From a bacterium (GTDB lineage Bacteria > Patescibacteriota > Minisyncoccia > Phycocordibacterales > GCA-002787175): a DNA stretch of 53,094 nt. Numbering within the stretch: position 1 is the stretch's first letter; the number at the start of each line of letters is the position of its first letter. The stretch lies in the NCBI GenBank assembly GCA_030699905.1, contig JAUYKQ010000001.1, forward strand, positions 1 through 53,094, in the 5' to 3' direction. Made by a program: the position numbers and the translations under genes. Under the pieces are notes generated by a model, which saw nothing but the letters and a program-made list of their open reading frames with translations, was not told the origin of the DNA and made no database searches. Positions 3,734-42,025 of the stretch are shown one piece after another.

Positions 3734-4702
3734 ATGCTTATTGACGAATTAAATTTGCGATTATCGGCCGGTCGCGGAGGCGACGGTGTTGTGCGCTGGT
3801 TGCACCTTAAAGGTAAAGAGTTTTCCGGTCCCGCGGGCGGAGATGGCGGTCGTGGCGCCGATGTCTATGTTTTAGGTGTTCGCGACATAGGCAAACTTTC
3901 TGACTATAGGAATAAAAAAGAATTCTTGGCTGAAGACGGCGGTAACGGGAAAAACAAAAGCCAAAAGGGAGCGAACGGCAAGGACTTGGTAATCAGCATG
4001 CCGGTCGGTTCGGTGATAACTGATATGGAGACGGGAAAAACCTGCGAGCTTTTACAAGAGGGCGAGAAAATTTTACTGCTCAAAGGAGGAAACGGCGGAT
4101 ATGGCAACGAGCATTTTAAGGGTTCTGTAAATCAAAGGCCGAAGGAGTGGACTGCCGGCAAAGAGGGTGAAAAAGGTAATTTTTATATAGAGCTTCGACT
4201 TATCGCGGACGCCGGATTTGTAGGACTTCCAAACGCCGGCAAGACCTCTCTTTTGAATGAGCTGACTCGCGCCGGAGCAAAAGTCGGAGCATATCAGTTT
4301 ACGACATTGGAGCCAAACCTCGGCGCGTTTTACGGTTTTGTTTTAGCCGATATTCCGGGACTTATTGAAGGGGCGGCAGAGGGCAAAGGTTTAGGACACA
4401 AGTTCTTGCGCCATGTCAGGCGCACCAAGGTTATCTTGCACTGCGTTTCTTTGGAAAATGAGGACCTGCTTGAAACTTACGATGCTGTGCGCGATGAACT
4501 CTTGGCTTACGCTTCGGAACTTATGGAAAAGAAAGAAATTATCATTTTGACGAAAACAGACACAAAAACGCCGAGCGAAATAAAAAAAGCAGTCAGAATG
4601 ATGAAGAAAAAGGCGAAGACCGTTCTCACTGTTTCTATTTTAAACGATGATGAACTAAAAAACTTTAAGGATGAACTTACAAAAATCTTGCGCTCCGATT
4701 GA
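3734..4702 (+). CDS. obg: GTPase Obg/CgtA, without C-terminal OCT domain
   Basis: A 322-residue Obg GTPase, a factor that binds the large ribosomal subunit and takes part in its assembly and stress responses. Residues 1-155 are the glycine-rich Obg fold (AGRGGDGVVRW, GPAGGDGGRG, LKGGNGGYGNEHF). The G domain has the P-loop GLPNAGKTS, switch II DIPGLIEGAAEGKGLG and a G4-like TKTD. The protein ends soon after the G domain, so the OCT domain of many Firmicutes members is missing. The start is set at MLIDELNLRLSAG. The 26 codons upstream in frame are translated repeat words and are excluded. The end is followed by a strong hairpin. Confidence 0.93.
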   Translation: MLIDELNLRLSAGRGGDGVVRWLHLKGKEFSGPAGGDGGRGADVYVLGVRDIGKLSDYRNKKEFLAEDGGNGKNKSQKGANGKDLVISMPVGSVITDMETGKTCELLQEGEKILLLKGGNGGYGNEHFKGSVNQRPKEWTAGKEGEKGNFYIELRLIADAGFVGLPNAGKTSLLNELTRAGAKVGAYQFTTLEPNLGAFYGFVLADIPGLIEGAAEGKGLGHKFLRHVRRTKVILHCVSLENEDLLETYDAVRDELLAYASELMEKKEIIILTKTDTKTPSEIKKAVRMMKKKAKTVLTVSILNDDELKNFKDELTKILRSD

Positions 4703-4864: not shown

Positions 4865-6315
4865 AAACTTATTACCCAACAATTGGACTTGAAATACATG
4901 CCGAACTCAAAACAAAGACGAAAATGTTTTGCGATTCCAAAAACGATCCGGATGAAACAGTGCCCAATGTCAATGTGTGTCCGGTTTGTGTGGGTCATCC
5001 GGGAACGTTGCCGACAATAAACAAGCAGGCCGTCAAGCATGTTTTGAAATTCGGAGTGGCTGTCGGCGGAAAACTGGCGAACTTCTGTGAATTTGATCGT
5101 AAAAATTATTTTTATCCGGACATTCCCAAAGGTTATCAGATAAGCCAGTATAAATATCCGTTGGTTTCCGGAGGGGAACTGGCCGGAATAAAACTCACTC
5201 GCGTGCATTTGGAGGAAGACACCGGAACATCTATTCATGACAGGGGTGACCACACCCTGCTTGACTTCAACAGGGCGGGTTTGCCTCTTATGGAGCTTGT
5301 GACAGAGCCGGTTATGCATTCAGCAAAAGAAGCGGGCGATTTTGCCCGTGAACTTCGGCTTTTACTGCGTGTTTTGGATGTGGCGGAAGCAAATATGGAA
5401 AAAGGAGAGATGAGAGTGGAAGCGAATATAAGCGTAAAGTGTGATGCAAGAAGTGAAAAGACGGAAAATGAAGAAAAAGAAGAAGAACTGGGGACGAAAG
5501 TGGAAGTAAAAAATTTAAACTCCTTTCGCGCGGTTGAAAGGGCCGTTGAATACGAGATAAAAAGACAGACGGAAGTTTTGGAAAAAGGGGAAAAGGTTAC
5601 CCAAGAAACGCGCGGTTGGGATGAGAACAAAGGAGTAACGTTTAGCCAGAGAAGCAAAGAAGAAGCCCGTGACTACAGATATTTTCCAGAACCCGATTTA
5701 CCAAAACTTTTTATAAATGAAATTCCCGAATTTGGGGAGGATAACCTGCGGAAAGAACTGCCGGAATTGCCTTGGCAAAAAAGACAAAGGTACAAAGATG
5801 ACTTCGGTTTAAACGATGAACAGACGGAGTTTTTCGTAACTAATGAAAGCTTTGCCGAATTTTTTGAAAATACGGCGAAAGAGCTAAATGATGTCCAAAA
5901 AGTCAAAATAGCCGCCAACTACATAATTTCCGATATTGCGGGACTTGTTAAAGCCACTTCAAAACCGTCAGGGCTTCCGTTCTCTCCTTTACAGTTTTCT
6001 TTACTGGTATCAATGATATTTTCGGCCGAAATTTCTTCACGTGGCGCGAAAGATATATTGGCTATAATGTATAAAGAGGGAGGAGATCCAAGGGCTATCG
6101 CAAAAGAAAAAAACCTTATTCAACAGTCAGACGAGAGTTCGGTCAGTAAAATGGCCGAAGAGATTATTTCAGAAAATCCAAAGGTGGTGTCGGAATACAA
6201 AGCCGGTAAAGAAGCGTCTATGCAATTTCTCATAGGTCAGGGTATGAAAAAGAGCAAGGGAAGTATAAATCCGGAAATGCTGAAAAAAATACTGGTAGAA
6301 ATCTTAAAAAAATAA
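4861..6315 (+). CDS. gatB: Asp-tRNA(Asn)/Glu-tRNA(Gln) amidotransferase subunit B
   Basis: A 484-residue GatB, the kinase/tRNA-binding subunit of the GatCAB amidotransferase that makes Gln-tRNA(Gln) or Asn-tRNA(Asn) from the misacylated tRNA. The N-terminal signature PTIGLEIHAELKTKTKMF is intact, followed by the paired cysteines of the zinc-binding family pattern (NVCPVCVGHPGTLP), RKNYFYPDIPKGYQISQY, DFNRAGLPLMELVTEP and SFRAVERAVEYEIKRQ. The C-terminal 150 residues form the YqeY-like tail domain ending with GSINPEMLKKIL. The start codon overlaps the stop of an upstream stub frame. gatA and gatC are not in the window. A hairpin repeat element follows. Confidence 0.95.
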   Translation: MKTYYPTIGLEIHAELKTKTKMFCDSKNDPDETVPNVNVCPVCVGHPGTLPTINKQAVKHVLKFGVAVGGKLANFCEFDRKNYFYPDIPKGYQISQYKYPLVSGGELAGIKLTRVHLEEDTGTSIHDRGDHTLLDFNRAGLPLMELVTEPVMHSAKEAGDFARELRLLLRVLDVAEANMEKGEMRVEANISVKCDARSEKTENEEKEEELGTKVEVKNLNSFRAVERAVEYEIKRQTEVLEKGEKVTQETRGWDENKGVTFSQRSKEEARDYRYFPEPDLPKLFINEIPEFGEDNLRKELPELPWQKRQRYKDDFGLNDEQTEFFVTNESFAEFFENTAKELNDVQKVKIAANYIISDIAGLVKATSKPSGLPFSPLQFSLLVSMIFSAEISSRGAKDILAIMYKEGGDPRAIAKEKNLIQQSDESSVSKMAEEIISENPKVVSEYKAGKEASMQFLIGQGMKKSKGSINPEMLKKILVEILKK

Positions 6316-34597: not shown

Positions 34598-35629
34598 ATG
34601 TTTGATTATAAAAAATTGAAAGAAGTTGATATTGGAACTCTTAATCGACAAGAATTAGGGGTAGATTTGAACTTCAATGCAATCATCCCGAATTTAGAGA
34701 GAATTAAGAGCTATCTTCTTTTCTTTGAGGGAAGGGAAAACTCCTTGGATAAGGATATAGAAAAACCGTCAATAGTGGACATTTTTAATAAGCTAACCGA
34801 ACTGATTAATCTTGTTAAGACTTTTTCTGTGGATCCAAATGAGAGTCATGAGCAGACGCGCGCAAAGAGAACAAATATTTTGAAAAAGATTAGAGCATTA
34901 CATAGTTTATCTAATGAAAAATTGCTCCCCTTAATTACACATCTGAAGTTTAACGACACTAAAATACAGGAAACAATATTAAGCACACAAAATAAACTTA
35001 CTCAAATTGATAATCAATTCACCTCTAAATTGGAGAATTTTGATAACAAAGTAAAACAAAAGATATCTGAATTTGATGCTAATATAGCAAAAGCTAATGG
35101 TGCTGTGAGAGAGGCTAATCGAATAAAACAGGAAGCAGAAAATTTTACTGTAGACAAATTAGTTGCAAAATATGGGGAGATTTTTTCGGATCAGGCAACA
35201 AAGAATAAGATCACGGCCTTTATAAGCTTGTTTATATTTATTCTATCATTATTGGCTCTGCTATTTTTTACTAATTGGCTTTTTGATCACCTGCTGGAGC
35301 TGATTGCAGAGAATGGATTTGAAACTAAATACGTTGTGGTCAATACGATATTTCGTCTAACATTAATAGGACTGGCCTCAATTATAGTGAAAGAAAGTCT
35401 CAAGAGTTTCAACATAAATATGAATCTTTACAATTTGAATTTACATAGACAAAACTCCCTTCAATCTTTTGAGATTTTGATTGCGAATACAAGGAACTCT
35501 GAAACACGCGATTTCATTATTAGAGAAATCGCCAAAACAATTTATTCTAATCAGGAAAGTGGATATTTACAAAAAGACAAGAAAATTAATATTTCTGATA
35601 TGGGTGAGTTAATTAAATCAGTAAAATAA
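34598..35629 (+). CDS. coiled-coil membrane protein of the R-M cluster, function unknown
   Basis: A 343-residue protein. Residues 1-125 are helical and polar. Residues 125-190 are a heptad-like coiled coil rich in Lys, Glu, Asn and Gln. Two membrane helices follow (AFISLFIFILSLLALLFFT and IFRLTLIGLASIIV), and then a conserved-looking cytoplasmic tail (LNLHRQNSLQSFEILIANTR, IIREIAKTIYSNQESGYL). I do not recognise a named family. It ends one base before mod starts, so it belongs to the same transcript. Its codons are more AT-rich than the housekeeping genes, like mod and the next gene. A membrane-linked partner of the restriction system is a guess from context only. Confidence 0.75.
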   Translation: MFDYKKLKEVDIGTLNRQELGVDLNFNAIIPNLERIKSYLLFFEGRENSLDKDIEKPSIVDIFNKLTELINLVKTFSVDPNESHEQTRAKRTNILKKIRALHSLSNEKLLPLITHLKFNDTKIQETILSTQNKLTQIDNQFTSKLENFDNKVKQKISEFDANIAKANGAVREANRIKQEAENFTVDKLVAKYGEIFSDQATKNKITAFISLFIFILSLLALLFFTNWLFDHLLELIAENGFETKYVVVNTIFRLTLIGLASIIVKESLKSFNINMNLYNLNLHRQNSLQSFEILIANTRNSETRDFIIREIAKTIYSNQESGYLQKDKKINISDMGELIKSVK

Positions 35630-35630
35630 T

Positions 35631-37196
35631 ATGCCCCTATTTACTTGGATAGGAAAAGATAAGGTAGTAAATCACGATAAGGATGTGCCTTTTAGGCTAC
35701 TCAAGAAAAACAAGGGGCTGTCGCTGGGAGAGAGAAGTGAAAACCTAATCGTGGAGGGGGATAATCTGGAGGCGCTTAAAGCGCTCCTACCTTTCTATTA
35801 CGGACAAGTTAAGTGTGTTTACATTGACCCACCATATAATACTGGAAATGAAAAATGGGTTTATAACGATAAGGTTAATTCGCCAGCTATTCAAAAATGG
35901 TTAAAGAAAACTGTTGGGCAAGAAGGGGAGGATTTAGAGCGACATGATAAATGGCTATGTATGATGTATCCGCGGCTGAAATTGTTGCATCAGCTTCTCC
36001 GTGAAGATGGAGTAATTTTTATTTCCATTGATGATAACGAGCATTGCAACTTGAAAATGATAATGGATGATATCTTTGGAACGGAGAATTTTGTGGCGAA
36101 TATTATTTGGCAGAAAAAGTTTTCACCTCAAAATGATGCCAGGTATTTTTCTGATAACCATGATTTTATAGTGTGCTATGCAAAAAAGAAAAATTACAAT
36201 GGAATCGAAGATGGATGGAAAAGAAATCTACAACCTAGAAATGACGAAATGAATGCACGTTACTCTAATCCAGATAATGATACTAGGGGGGTATGGACTT
36301 CAGGGGATATGTCAGTCAAAACATATACACCGAGCACAGATTACCCAATAACCACCCCTTCCGGGAGGGTTGTTAATCCTCCAAAGGGATATTGCTGGAG
36401 ATTTTCAAAAGAAAAATTCACGGAACTGGTCAAGGATAGTCGTATTTGGTTTGGGGAAAATGGGTCAAATGTCCCTCGCCTTAAAAGATTTTTAACTGAA
36501 GTTCAAGAGGGTTTAGTTCCATTAACAATTTGGCTTCATACTGAGGTTGGTCATAATCAAGAAGCAAAGCAGGAAATCAAGAATATCTTAAAATCAGAAT
36601 CTCCATTTCAAACCCCGAAACCGACAAGACTGATTAAAAGGATTTTACAAATAGCTACGAGGAAAGATGATATTATCTTAGATTCTTTTGCTGGTTCAGG
36701 GACAACGGCTCAAGCTGTATTAGAGATGAATGAGGAAGAAAAAGACAGCAACCGAAAGTTTATATTGGTTGAAATGGAAAAGAAAATCGCGCGGGAAATC
36801 ACACAGGAGAGAGTGCGACGAGTTGCTAAAAAAATAGGTGGTGGCGACTTTGAATACGTAGAGCTCGGTGAGCCGCTTTTCAGGGCGGATGGAAATATAA
36901 ATGACAAAGTATCATTTGAAGAGATGGCGAGCTATATCTATTTTACCGAAACGCTTTCAAATATTGATAAAAAGAAAATCAAAGGAAATTGTATCGGAGA
37001 GTATAACGGCACAGAATATTATCTGCTGTTTAGGCAAAAAGGTGAAAATATCTTGAGTCGTAGCGCGTTAAAAGGAATAAAAAAGAACGAAGAAAGAAAG
37101 GTCATTTATGCGGACAAGTGTCTTTTAGGCGAGGAGACCTTGGGGCAGTACAATATTGTTTTTAAACAGATACCATATCAGGTGAGAGTATATTAA
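35631..37196 (+). CDS. mod: type III restriction-modification methyltransferase (Mod)
   Basis: A 521-residue adenine-N6 methyltransferase of the beta class: motif IV DPPYNTGNEKW comes first (about residue 69) and the SAM-binding motif I DSFAGSGTTAQAV follows late (about residue 352), the order typical of type III Mod. The variable region between them (about residues 150-310), with YWRFS-like and WFGENGSNVPRLKRFL stretches, should hold target recognition. The C-terminal 90 residues are a helical extension. Mod and Res form the modification and restriction complex, but here one extra gene separates them. Start and stop are packed one and two bases from the neighbours, indicating one operon. Confidence 0.92.
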   Translation: MPLFTWIGKDKVVNHDKDVPFRLLKKNKGLSLGERSENLIVEGDNLEALKALLPFYYGQVKCVYIDPPYNTGNEKWVYNDKVNSPAIQKWLKKTVGQEGEDLERHDKWLCMMYPRLKLLHQLLREDGVIFISIDDNEHCNLKMIMDDIFGTENFVANIIWQKKFSPQNDARYFSDNHDFIVCYAKKKNYNGIEDGWKRNLQPRNDEMNARYSNPDNDTRGVWTSGDMSVKTYTPSTDYPITTPSGRVVNPPKGYCWRFSKEKFTELVKDSRIWFGENGSNVPRLKRFLTEVQEGLVPLTIWLHTEVGHNQEAKQEIKNILKSESPFQTPKPTRLIKRILQIATRKDDIILDSFAGSGTTAQAVLEMNEEEKDSNRKFILVEMEKKIAREITQERVRRVAKKIGGGDFEYVELGEPLFRADGNINDKVSFEEMASYIYFTETLSNIDKKKIKGNCIGEYNGTEYYLLFRQKGENILSRSALKGIKKNEERKVIYADKCLLGEETLGQYNIVFKQIPYQVRVY

Positions 37197-37198
37197 TT

Positions 37199-37972
37199 AT
37201 GTCTGCTGATCTAAAAAAACTAGTTGAGGATAGTGGTATGATAACCCACTATAAAACAATGAAAGCCTTAGAAAAACGATTGTGGCCATTTTTGGTAAGC
37301 CCTTATTATTACGATCATATAGGGGAGAATATCAGAGAGATGGACCTGATTGCAGAAAGGCAGTTTTGTTCGGCAGACAGACCCAGTCATTCAACGGCGC
37401 AAGTGAATATGCAATTGTTTATTGAATGTAAATACATAAAACAGGAAATCGTTTTTTTGTTTAATAAGATCAATAAGAGCAGAGCGGTTTCAAGTCTAGA
37501 AAGGGAATCTGAACTTGTTTTGGCTGATAAAAGAAGTGGGGATATCTTACCTACTGATTTTCACTACATAGATAACGGAGGCCTTGTAGCAAAGTTGTTC
37601 TCCGCTAACACTAATAAGGAAGATGTTATCTACAAGGCAATTAGTCAGTGTTTGCATGCACTCCTTTCTTATCGTTCAGATATCAAGAAGCCCATTTTCC
37701 ATGAATTTAACGGACGATCTGAGGTTAATTCAAGAATTATACAATACCCTATTATTGTCTGTGACAATTTTGAGAAACTGACTAGAATAACATTTGATGA
37801 GCAGATTCAATTTTCTGTTGAAAAGATGGACCCAGCTTTTCTTTTAGAAGTTGATTACAGAGGGGACTATTTTTTGATAGATGTTGTAGATATAAACTAC
37901 CTCGCAACTTTTTTGGACAAGATGGAAGATGAAGCGGGCCGTATCGTTAAAGCATTAAGTTTTAGACGTTGA
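37199..37972 (+). CDS. predicted PD-(D/E)XK-type nuclease between mod and res
   Basis: A 257-residue protein not recognised as a named family. An N-terminal segment, NIREMDLIAERQF, followed 25-30 residues later by NMQLFIECKYIKQEI gives Asp, then Glu-x-Lys, the spacing and beta-strand setting of a PD-(D/E)XK nuclease core (D-I-x-A, then h-E-C-K). The rest is mixed alpha-beta without further motifs. It starts two bases after mod and its stop overlaps the beginning of the res reading frame, so it is a fixed part of this operon. Standard type III systems need only Mod and Res, so a third, nuclease-like subunit is unexpected. The nuclease call is motif-based inference. Confidence 0.65.
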   Translation: MSADLKKLVEDSGMITHYKTMKALEKRLWPFLVSPYYYDHIGENIREMDLIAERQFCSADRPSHSTAQVNMQLFIECKYIKQEIVFLFNKINKSRAVSSLERESELVLADKRSGDILPTDFHYIDNGGLVAKLFSANTNKEDVIYKAISQCLHALLSYRSDIKKPIFHEFNGRSEVNSRIIQYPIIVCDNFEKLTRITFDEQIQFSVEKMDPAFLLEVDYRGDYFLIDVVDINYLATFLDKMEDEAGRIVKALSFRR

Positions 37973-37977
37973 AAATT

Positions 37978-40275
37978 ATGCAACTCAAGAAATACCAAAC
38001 AGAATGTCTGAATAAACTGCACGAGTATGCCACAGAGTGCAGAAAACATCCACCGGAAGACGGCGCGGCTTTCGCTTGGATGAAGTTCCAACCGGAAAAA
38101 GGATATCACCGCTTTTCTCCAGAAAACAACGCGCCAATCGTGTGTCTTAAAGTTCCAACCGGCGGCGGGAAGACGCTTATCGCCTCACATTCAGTCAGTG
38201 TGCTTTTTGAGACATTTTTGAAAGAGCGGGCCAGCAGAGGCCTGGTTATGTGGTTTGTGCCTTCCGACTCTATCCGGACGCAAACGCTTAAAGCTCTTAA
38301 AAATCGCAATCACGCTTTCCGTAAATCGCTTGACAGTAATTTTGACAACAAAGTCAGAGTATTTGATATAACGGAAGCGAAACAAATTAGAAAAGGGGAC
38401 TTATCGGAAAATGTTTGTATTGTTATCTCCACTTTAGGCGCATTCCGCAGAGAAGCACGGGACACGCTTAAGGTCTTTCAAAATAACGGCGCGTTGCTGG
38501 AGCATTTTGAAGAATTGCCTGAAGAAGCGAAAGAATTTTTGGAAAAAGACAAGAACAAGGAAATTATAAACTCTCTTGCAAACGTCATTCGTCTGCATAA
38601 TCCGCTTACTATTGTTGATGAGGGGCATAATATAGATACCGAACTGTCGCTTCAAATGTTGGAAGTCCTTAATCCATCTTTTGTCTTGGAGTTTACGGCA
38701 ACGCCGAGAAAAAGCAGTAATGTGCTTGTAGAAATCGGGGCGCAAGCTTTGAAAGAGCAGAAGATGATAAAGATGCCGATACTTTTGCATCCTGTTTCGC
38801 CGTGGCAGGAAGCGATTTATGCGGGTATCAAGAAGCGAAAAGAGCTTGAGACAATATCCGATAAGAATCAGACCGGATATATACGGCCGATAATGCTTAT
38901 TCAGGCAGAGCAGGAAAAAGAAAGCGAAAAAAGGGTCTTTGTGGAGCAGATAAAAAAGTTTTTGGTCAACGACGCAAAGATTTCAGAGGATGAGATTGTT
39001 GTGAAGACAGCGACAAAGAATAACTTGCCAGATGCTGAAACATTAGCGGATGATAAATGTCCGATTCGCTATATTATTACAGTCAATGCTCTGCGCGAAG
39101 GGTGGGATTGCCCTTTTGCATATATTCTTGTTTCCGTTTCAAACTTGGGCGCGGCTGTTTCCGTAGAGCAGACAATCGGCAGAATTATGCGTTTGCCGTA
39201 TGTAAAAGAGCACAAAAGCAAGGAACTTAATCAGGCGTATATATTTGCTTCAACAAGCAATTTTACCCAAACAGCTGAAAATGTTATTTCCGCTCTTAAG
39301 AAAAATGGGTATGAGGATATCTCTATTGTCGGTGGTGGTGTAAATGTTGAGCCGAAAACATATAAAAAGTTGGTTAAAGAGAAAATAGCTATTTCATATA
39401 TCAATATAAAGGACGAATCAGGCAAGGTGCGGAAGATTGATTATGTGGCGGACTTGATAAGCGAACAAAAACTTCTTCAGGGTCTTTCAACCGAAATCGG
39501 TTTTGAATTGCCGAAAGAAAATAATGAAATTGTGCGTATAGATGTAAGACACGGAGGACAACTGGTGAAAGAAAAAGGGGGAAATTATGCGATTATGTAT
39601 CACGCTGATATAAATACAAAAGAAGGATTGCTTTCATGGCTTCGTTTCCGCGTGCATAGAGAATATATTGCAATGAAAGAGATTAGTGATTTCTTGAATC
39701 GGCTTTTCGCTTCTTTGTTACAGAGATATCCAGTAGAGAAATTGGGCCCCGCGTGTTACTCGCTTAAGGATGTGGTGGAGAGGGTGATTGATTCGGCTGT
39801 AAATAAAGCGACACAAAAGCGGTTTGGGGAGTTAGAGAAGCGAGGGTTATTACAAACAGACGGAGAGGGCTTTGAGTTTGGCGATGAAATGACGCTTACT
39901 GCCACATCAAAAGAGCCGTTTGAACGACATGCGTACGAGAAGGTGGCTGATATAAACAGGGAGGAATTGCAGTTTGCAAAGAAAGTTGACGCGTTACCAA
40001 ATGTAAAGTGGTGGTTGCGTAATCCTGAAAATGGAGGGTTTGGAATACAGGGGTGGAAAAAAGACAAATTCCGTCCGGATTTTTTGCTAAAAACTAAAAA
40101 CAATGATCTTATCGTGATTGAATATAAGGGCGCGCATTTAGCGACAGGGGAAGACACAGATTATAAAAGAGCCTTGGGAGAGAAATGGGCAAAATTGAGT
40201 GGCGGTAAACATCATTTCTTTCTTGCGGAGAAAAATAACACAGATAAGATTGTTTCTGGGATTTCGGAATTATAG
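37978..40275 (+). CDS. res: type III restriction enzyme Res subunit (helicase-nuclease)
   Basis: A 765-residue superfamily 2 ATPase with nuclease tail. Walker A is KVPTGGGKTLIASH, motif II is TIVDEGHNID (DEGH), motif III is FTATPRK, motif V is VNALREGWDCPFAY and motif VI is EQTIGRIMRLPY. Near the C-terminus FRPDFLLKTKNNDLIVIEYK with GAH after it is the PD-(D/E)XK endonuclease motif. All residues needed for translocation and cleavage appear intact. I chose the ATG of MQLKKYQTE; a TTG nine bases earlier would overlap the upstream stop. Together with mod this is a complete type III system. Confidence 0.92.
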   Translation: MQLKKYQTECLNKLHEYATECRKHPPEDGAAFAWMKFQPEKGYHRFSPENNAPIVCLKVPTGGGKTLIASHSVSVLFETFLKERASRGLVMWFVPSDSIRTQTLKALKNRNHAFRKSLDSNFDNKVRVFDITEAKQIRKGDLSENVCIVISTLGAFRREARDTLKVFQNNGALLEHFEELPEEAKEFLEKDKNKEIINSLANVIRLHNPLTIVDEGHNIDTELSLQMLEVLNPSFVLEFTATPRKSSNVLVEIGAQALKEQKMIKMPILLHPVSPWQEAIYAGIKKRKELETISDKNQTGYIRPIMLIQAEQEKESEKRVFVEQIKKFLVNDAKISEDEIVVKTATKNNLPDAETLADDKCPIRYIITVNALREGWDCPFAYILVSVSNLGAAVSVEQTIGRIMRLPYVKEHKSKELNQAYIFASTSNFTQTAENVISALKKNGYEDISIVGGGVNVEPKTYKKLVKEKIAISYINIKDESGKVRKIDYVADLISEQKLLQGLSTEIGFELPKENNEIVRIDVRHGGQLVKEKGGNYAIMYHADINTKEGLLSWLRFRVHREYIAMKEISDFLNRLFASLLQRYPVEKLGPACYSLKDVVERVIDSAVNKATQKRFGELEKRGLLQTDGEGFEFGDEMTLTATSKEPFERHAYEKVADINREELQFAKKVDALPNVKWWLRNPENGGFGIQGWKKDKFRPDFLLKTKNNDLIVIEYKGAHLATGEDTDYKRALGEKWAKLSGGKHHFFLAEKNNTDKIVSGISEL

Positions 40276-40789: not shown

Positions 40790-40969
40790 TATTATGACCA
40801 TCTTCAAATTAACTGCGCTTCGACCCTTTTCCATTCCTATTCCATACACCACTAACCACCCAACAACATCCTTAAAAAACTGAAAAATCGTGAAAATCGT
40901 GGCTGCTTAAATTTTTACTCATACAACGGAGTTTAATCCATATATAAAATTTCTACTTTTGTAGATTTC

Positions 40970-40998
40970 TTGACTTCTTCACTCGGTTTCGTTATGAT
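40970..40998 (+). promoter_or_regulatory. promoter inside the repeat-flanked unit
   Basis: TTGACT, a 17-base spacer and TATGAT form the best -35/-10 pair in this segment, starting four bases after the first repeat. Transcription should start near 41004-41006. Confidence 0.65.
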
Positions 40999-41004
40999 TT
41001 TAGT

Positions 41005-41118
41005 TAAAGAACTTGTTGACCGCTTCCGAAGAGCAGAAAGGCTTGCTGCCAAGTTGCCTTCGGGTAAGAACGATGAGGGATCTGCCGCCCCTCCGGAAGC
41101 GATCAATCGGTTTTTTTT
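41005..41118 (+). ncRNA. candidate structured small RNA between the Cas12a-type repeats
   Basis: Downstream of the promoter, TTGACCGCTTCCG (41016-41028) pairs with CGGAAGCGATCAA (41094-41106), 12 pairs with one C-A mismatch. Inside it are a hairpin AAGGC/GCCTT (41038-41042 with 41056-41060) and a hairpin GAGGG/CCCTC (41075-41079 with 41089-41093) that abuts the closing stem, making a three-way junction. Four bases later comes a run of eight T. Promoter, compact fold and T run predict an RNA of about 114 nt. The same DNA also encodes a 69-codon open frame (MTSSLGFVMILVKELVDRF start) that runs through the T run and the second repeat, so a small protein is not excluded. No complementarity to the repeat was found by eye. 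Confidence 0.5.
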
Positions 41119-41209
41119 ATTTTCTCAAATTGTTTACTGCGTTTGGTTTAATCCATATATAAAATTTCTACTTTTGTAGATTAAATTGATGTTGTGGTAG
41201 TATGTGACC

Positions 41210-42025
41210 ATGTCTCTTCCAATTGATCTTGTTTTGATAAGGCACGGCCAATCAGAGGGTAATGCCGCCAAGCGCCGAAGCGAAAAGGGTGATAACAGCG
41301 GTTACGAACTTCTTAGCGGTCGGCACACAAGAAGTTTTAGGCTTTCTGAAAAGGGTCGAAAACAGGCGGCGCTTGCCGGCAAATGGCTTGCCGAGGAATT
41401 TCCCAAAGATGAAAATGGGATGGTTTTTGACCGATTCATAACTTCCGAATATGCGAGGGCTATGGAAACTGCCGCTCTTTTGGGGTTGCCCGAGGCGATA
41501 TGGTATCGCAATTTTTACCTTACCGAGAGAGATTGGGGAGATCTGGAACAGTGTCCCGAAAATGAGCGTATGGAAAAATACGGAAAAGCACTGCGAATGT
41601 ATAACACCGAACCGTTCTTTTGGAAACCGCCGAACGGAGAATCTTTCGCGGAACTTTGCTTGAGGCTAGACAGAGTCCTTTTCACTCTCCATCGCGAATG
41701 CAGTGATATGCGAGTCATAATAGTTTGCCATGGAGAAGTGATGAGGGCTTTCCGTGTTCTTATTGAGCGCATGTCACAGCAGAAATTCAAGCAGTTCTAT
41801 CACTCAAAAAAGACCGAGCACAGAGTCAATAATTGCGAGATTCTGCATTACACCAGACGGGATCCGGAAACTGGACATATTTCATCAAGAGCGGACTGGA
41901 TGAGGAGGATCCGACCATCCAATGAACCGTTTTGGACCACGGGTTGGAAAAAGATTTATCGGCCGAAATATTCTAATGAAGATTTATTGGAGACGGTTGA
42001 TATGTTCCCGGCGATTTTGGCGTAA
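41210..42025 (+). CDS. histidine phosphatase family protein
   Basis: A 271-residue branch-1 histidine phosphatase (phosphoglycerate mutase superfamily). The phospho-acceptor motif is VLIRHGQSEGNAAKRR, the acid Glu region is TLTERDWGDLEQCP-like (FYLTERDWGDLE), and the second His is in VIIVCHGEVMRAF. The family covers sugar phosphatases, mutases and nucleotide phosphatases, and the substrate is unknown. The ATG is six bases after a TGGTAGTAT box, and that promoter lies within the 28 bases following the second Cas12a-type repeat. Any crRNA made from that repeat would carry this gene's own promoter region as guide. Confidence 0.85.
   Translation: MSLPIDLVLIRHGQSEGNAAKRRSEKGDNSGYELLSGRHTRSFRLSEKGRKQAALAGKWLAEEFPKDENGMVFDRFITSEYARAMETAALLGLPEAIWYRNFYLTERDWGDLEQCPENERMEKYGKALRMYNTEPFFWKPPNGESFAELCLRLDRVLFTLHRECSDMRVIIVCHGEVMRAFRVLIERMSQQKFKQFYHSKKTEHRVNNCEILHYTRRDPETGHISSRADWMRRIRPSNEPFWTTGWKKIYRPKYSNEDLLETVDMFPAILA

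Follow-up and report, generated by a model that had tools for sequence, protein, structure and literature searches.

A skipping-rope RNA gene between two probable relic type V-A CRISPR repeats in a Patescibacteria genome

The window (the whole stretch of DNA analysed here, 53,094 nt) comes from a genome of 816 kb in 31 contigs that is 98.9% complete, and carries two CRISPR repeats between a restriction-modification operon and a histidine phosphatase gene. The interval between the repeats is a complete small RNA (sRNA) gene, with a promoter-like site, a skipping-rope RNA and a terminator. The operon, which makes this a defence neighbourhood, consists in order of an unknown gene, an N6/N4 DNA methylase, a second unknown gene and a ResIII-type helicase; other neighbours in the window are gyrB, thrS and dnaE, with no phage genes nearby. 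The features of the locus are as follows.

34598..40275, plus strand: restriction-modification operon (PF01555, PF04851), upstream of the repeats
40931..40966, plus strand: type V-A (Cas12a-type) CRISPR repeat R1, GTTTAATCCATATATAAAATTTCTACTTTTGTAGAT
40970..40998, plus strand: sigma-70-like promoter of the sRNA gene (predicted), TTGACT-17-TATGAT
41005..41118, plus strand: whole sRNA as predicted, approximate start site to T8 run
41021..41101, plus strand: skipping-rope RNA (Rfam RF02924)
41119..41145, plus strand: 27-nt stretch from terminator to R2, possibly a former spacer
41146..41181, plus strand: type V-A CRISPR repeat R2, same sequence as R1
41204..42025, plus strand: histidine phosphatase gene (PF00300), just downstream of R2

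R1 and R2 are direct copies, identical over 36 nt (37 nt counting the T that follows), 215 nt apart from start to start with 179 nt in between, just as a first-pass annotation of the sequence had described. Its assignment of the repeats to the Cas12a type also holds. The 19-nt handle AATTTCTACTTTTGTAGAT is intact in both repeats and has exactly two sites in the window with up to three mismatches allowed, against 0.04 expected from dinucleotide shuffles; moreover, R1 and R2 match the array repeats GTCTAATCCCTATATCAAATTTCTACTTTTGTAGAT and GTCTAATCCTTATATAAAATTTCTACTTATGTAGAT of two Cas12a-bearing genomes of the same order (G049 and G053) at 33 of 36 positions each, and are therefore genuine V-A repeats. 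The annotation was likewise right that this is no ordinary array: instead of the regular spacers of about 25–30 nt expected of a V-A array, there are two sole repeats 179 nt apart. With up to two mismatches allowed, the handle has no further site in the rest of the genome, and this search gave no second array. IMG/VR held neither the exact 36-nt repeat nor a degenerate form allowing the G049 and G053 differences.

An Rfam search of the interval between the repeats returned one match, the skipping-rope RNA, at 37.0 bits (gathering threshold 36.7, E 3.7e-7), and this RNA is single-copy in the genome. Its closing stem is prolonged by an outer stem that ends in an intrinsic terminator, with a T8 run at 41111-41118, and the predicted full transcript folds at -43.2 kcal/mol. 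The putative promoter starts three bases after R1 and agrees with the consensus at 10 of 12 bases, a match that by itself could be due to chance (one found against 1.5 expected from shuffles); its TTGACT box recurs at the matching place in L052, a locus from another Patescibacteria genome with an 80% identical sRNA over 122 nt, stem and T-run terminator included, and no flanking repeats. With its own predicted promoter after R1 and its terminator before R2, the gene would yield a transcript (about 41005-41118) that includes neither repeat, so that the sRNA is not expected to be crRNA-like. The unit between the repeats is thus a skipping-rope RNA and not a spacer, a pseudo-spacer or an RNA toxin; the first-pass annotation, which likened the layout to regulators and guards whose repeat-like units flank a non-spacer element, had missed a complete sRNA gene. 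The 27 nt left between terminator and R2 have the length of a V-A spacer (25–28 nt in G049 and G053) and could be a former one, although the agreement in length may be due to chance. Exact 20-mers of two spacer-like stretches, one of them from these 27 nt, gave no match in IMG/VR, a search that would miss mismatched protospacers, and the phage and plasmid collections held no close copies of the whole unit.

As the first-pass annotation had stated, there are no cas genes in the window; its proposal that a Cas12a encoded elsewhere in the genome acts on the repeats fared worse. Searches of the 98.9% complete genome for Cas12a (TIGR04330) and Cas1 (PF01867) gave no match, with G049 and G053 matching as positive controls in both searches and G002, a sister species of the same genus, in the second. 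Both G049 and G053 carry Cas12a, Cas1 and regular arrays. Across the order, V-A-type repeats occur in 6 of 397 genomes, as regular arrays in four, as a decayed group in one (G021) and as the present pair; two repeats spaced 215 nt apart are seen in none of the 396 other genomes. The annotation had looked to this and related genomes for cas12a, for a matching array and for conservation of the pair: the first two are lacking from this genome and the pair is not conserved, whereas matching arrays do occur elsewhere in the order. The decayed group (G021:C22:9405-9572, locus L088) consists of about three degenerate repeats spaced near 62-66 nt in a genome whose Cas12a and Cas1 searches gave no match, which shows that the order includes V-A arrays that have decayed and stand without cas genes. 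The window resembles it in having V-A repeats in a genome without cas genes; it differs in that its repeats are identical, are spaced 215 nt rather than about 63 nt apart and enclose an sRNA gene. The one handle match in G113 falls within coding sequence that by eye looks transketolase-like, and probably arose by chance.

The gene on the far side of R2 offers a clue to the history of the site. In G002 the phosphatase has an 80% identical ortholog (G002:C80:776-1585). Contig C80 starts with an array of five 36-nt repeats (C80:41-339), and the ortholog comes just after it, separated by one small minus-strand ORF. The start of another G002 contig (C106:54-4602) carries cas2, cas1 and cas9, of which Cas1 was confirmed by PF01867 and the other two were identified by reading their sequence. 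We infer that the C106 and C80 ends join as one type II-C CRISPR-Cas locus. The slot upstream of the phosphatase thus seems to hold, in the sister species, a CRISPR locus of another type, a conclusion in which we place moderate confidence because only the phosphatase is common to both genomes: the shared slot depends on this one adjacent gene, and wider gene order around it, including the genes further downstream, differs from G002. Since an array stands upstream of the ortholog there, the preferred reading of the repeats in the window is that a V-A array once occupied this CRISPR slot and left them as a relic.

We turned to the RNA itself with a custom model built from four sequences and applied it to 397 genomes from the order and 380 from the phylum; in addition to the window, 17 loci were studied, with Clostridia and one phage record among them. 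The closing stem, the hairpins and the conserved GAUG.GGGA..GCCGCCC segment are present; over 19 distinct rows both sides change in 18 of 21 pairs, and in the same rows 91.3% of pair cells are standard pairs, against 64.5% in shuffles. The covariation score was 0.651, compared with 0.181 for shuffled and at most 0.169 for slid alignments, and was reached by 0 of 500 shuffles, the alignment being fitted to the model and hence biased toward the structure. The window copy shares both the sequence and the full secondary structure of RF02924 and is set apart by its placement between two V-A repeats: CRISPR repeats bracket the gene at none of the 17 other loci. RF02924 matches in G068, G071 and G107 were discarded by eye as tRNA-Leu false positives, and most pattern matches in a contig collection scored under the RF02924 threshold and seem to be random hits in coding DNA.

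Directly downstream of the RNA, most of the other loci have an opposite-strand gene of about 95-250 codons, which as a rule overlaps the RNA gene by its 3' end. At 10 of the 17 loci, from both Patescibacteria and Clostridia, this convergent gene encodes an RNase of the BECR/PBECR group (PBECR being the phage Barnase-EndoU-ColicinE5/D-RelE nucleases, Pfam PBECR2 and PBECR3). Pfam PBECR3/PBECR2 matches were obtained at L092 (3.9e-18), L080 (6.8e-8), L083 (3.6e-7), L085 (1.1e-5), L086 (5e-4), L084 (7e-4) and L078 (PBECR2, 1.3e-3), of which the first three pass the curated cut-off; L077, L081 and L094 were joined to this set by hhalign profile comparison (95.8%, E 8e-9). The seven loci without a recognised RNase gene are L075, L074, L076, L082, L079, L091 and L093, and among these L074 and L079 have a convergent ORF to which no family could be given. 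A search with the nuclease alignment found no match in the window genome, in G001 or in G002, and found one gene each in five other genomes, always at the skipping-rope locus; as these five also fed the alignment, the matches are expected, and the informative part is the absence of further copies. The nuclease was predicted to fold with a confident core (pLDDT 78). Foldseek gave no significant match to the PDB for this model, with RelE- and CDI-type toxin entries among the weak top matches, so that the BECR fold assignment rests on Pfam and hhalign.

This genomic context suggests that the skipping-rope RNA is a partner of the RNase, perhaps its antitoxin. The link is one of genomic association only, and against it stand the lack of a significant PDB match for the predicted fold and the seven of 17 loci that have no recognised RNase gene. 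The arrangement in the relatives recalls type III toxin-antitoxin systems, in that a structured RNA is genetically paired with an adjoining gene of RNase fold. In type III systems, however, RNA and toxin follow one another on one strand, whereas the skipping-rope and BECR genes are convergent and the putative toxin is a BECR/PBECR RNase. The window copy has no such neighbour: no toxin ORF was seen at the locus, and with no nuclease gene in the genome it looks orphaned.

Taken together, we think it probable that the locus consists of relic V-A repeats around an independent, orphan skipping-rope sRNA gene, with no present Cas12a-dependent role. R1 and R2 would be the leftovers of a V-A array that has lost Cas12a and the adaptation genes, sitting in the chromosomal slot that a CRISPR-Cas locus appears to occupy in the sister species. 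The product of the gene between them, which has its own putative promoter and its own terminator, would be a skipping-rope RNA rather than a crRNA. Relatives usually encode this RNA tail-to-tail with a BECR-fold RNase gene and in part antisense to it, and the RNA most likely binds or controls such an RNase as an antitoxin-like partner; with the RNase gene missing, the RNA in the window would be the orphan of such a pair, inserted into a V-A array or left beside it. Against a relic stands the perfect identity of R1 and R2, whereas the relic in G021 is degenerate. This identity, which the first-pass annotation had read as a sign of selection or recent origin, is weak evidence of selection, since two 36-nt copies that differ by 1% would remain identical in roughly half of cases or more.

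The nearest alternative, possible though on balance rather unlikely, is that a small V-A array took up a skipping-rope/BECR cassette, or just the RNA gene, with the repeats marking the edges of the insertion site; the layout would then stem from integration or from recombination between repeats, and the nuclease would have been lost later. The spacing of the promoter-like box (3 bases) from R1 and of the terminator (27 nt, one spacer length) from R2 agrees with such an event, and so does the minus strand of the insert, which still reads IASGGAADPSSFLPEGNLAASLSALRKRS, matching the C-terminus of the nuclease at L094, although this similarity may simply reflect conservation of the RNA. Two further loci hint that skipping-rope cassettes are mobile, as direct repeats bracket them: at L086 a 29-nt repeat with one mismatch (761-789 and 1779-1807), a duplicated gene 3' end, and at L084 an exact 23-nt repeat (1064-1086 and 1664-1686). 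Against insertion, a long bracketing repeat is absent from 11 of 13 other skipping-rope loci compared, and neither an insertion intermediate nor an empty site was seen.

A bolder history, which we regard as improbable, would make skipping-rope RNAs the RNA antitoxins of the convergent BECR RNases and place a whole pair between V-A repeats as a CRISPR companion that rendered the locus addictive or else neutralised phage-delivered PBECR nucleases, until the antitoxin alone remained between two repeats. CRISPR RNAs have been suggested as targets of the PBECR nucleases that phages deliver (PMC5512222).

The first-pass annotation had itself pointed to crRNA-like regulators and CRISPR guards of the CreR/CreTA type, served by Cas12a in trans, and the present evidence makes a functional unit of this kind very unlikely. 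The window shares with CreR, CreTA and CrePA a CRISPR repeat that adjoins a non-spacer element; both repeats keep an intact handle, and CreR has been described for V-A systems. In complex with Cas12a or Cascade, CreR represses cas promoters, and CreA is an RNA of crRNA type that undergoes processing (PMC12737573). Such units need the repeat handle in the transcript and a cognate effector; the predicted sRNA carries no repeat and the genome shows no Cas12a match and no second array, so that neither CreR nor CreA fits. CreTA further involves an adjacent toxin gene repressed through complementarity of a pseudo-spacer; no toxin ORF was seen at the locus, and the genome gave no BECR match. Nor is the layout conserved among the 396 other genomes of the order.

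We give still less credence to the view that R1 and R2 each serve as an RNA anti-CRISPR (Racr), a solitary repeat unit carried by a mobile element. Such units are repeats that mobile elements express from a promoter, and V-A examples are known (PMC10651486). The window repeats are like them in lying away from cas genes; they differ in being two chromosomal copies in no recognised mobile element, with the restriction operon, gyrB, thrS and dnaE as neighbours and no match in phage or plasmid collections; the sole promoter-like site lies downstream of R1, and neither repeat has one immediately before it. An assembly artefact, with an unrelated sRNA gene fused at the repeat to the flanks of an array, is just as hard to credit: repeats can mislead assemblers and arrays often lie at contig ends (as in G049, G155 and G002), but the unit lies inside a 53-kb contig and not at its end, the genome has one copy of the skipping-rope RNA, and both flanks of the pair continue straight on without spacers.

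With relic repeats around an orphan RNA gene as the preferred reading, the interest of the locus lies mainly in the skipping-rope RNA and not in a hidden CRISPR regulator, the repeat pair itself being probably a fossil. The literature searched describes no function for this family, which is named there only as an Rfam example, and the tail-to-tail placement of its genes with BECR-fold RNase genes is a new testable lead. If the RNA inhibits the RNase, the pairs would represent a further RNA-antitoxin arrangement, convergent and antisense-overlapping, and the window would hold an antitoxin left without its toxin where a CRISPR locus once stood, beside a restriction operon.

Several of the skipping-rope loci have other features of note. 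By eye, a PIN-like gene at L076 and a PemK/MazF-like gene at L082 lie within about 700 nt of the skipping-rope locus. Tandem pairs of skipping-rope-like RNAs occur at L081 (1501-1747) and L074 (1501-1660), both in genome G067. In a phage record (L044, IMGVR_UViG_2706795740), a BsrG-like type I antisense RNA at 4155-4429 lies about 460 nt from the skipping-rope RNA at 4887-4964.
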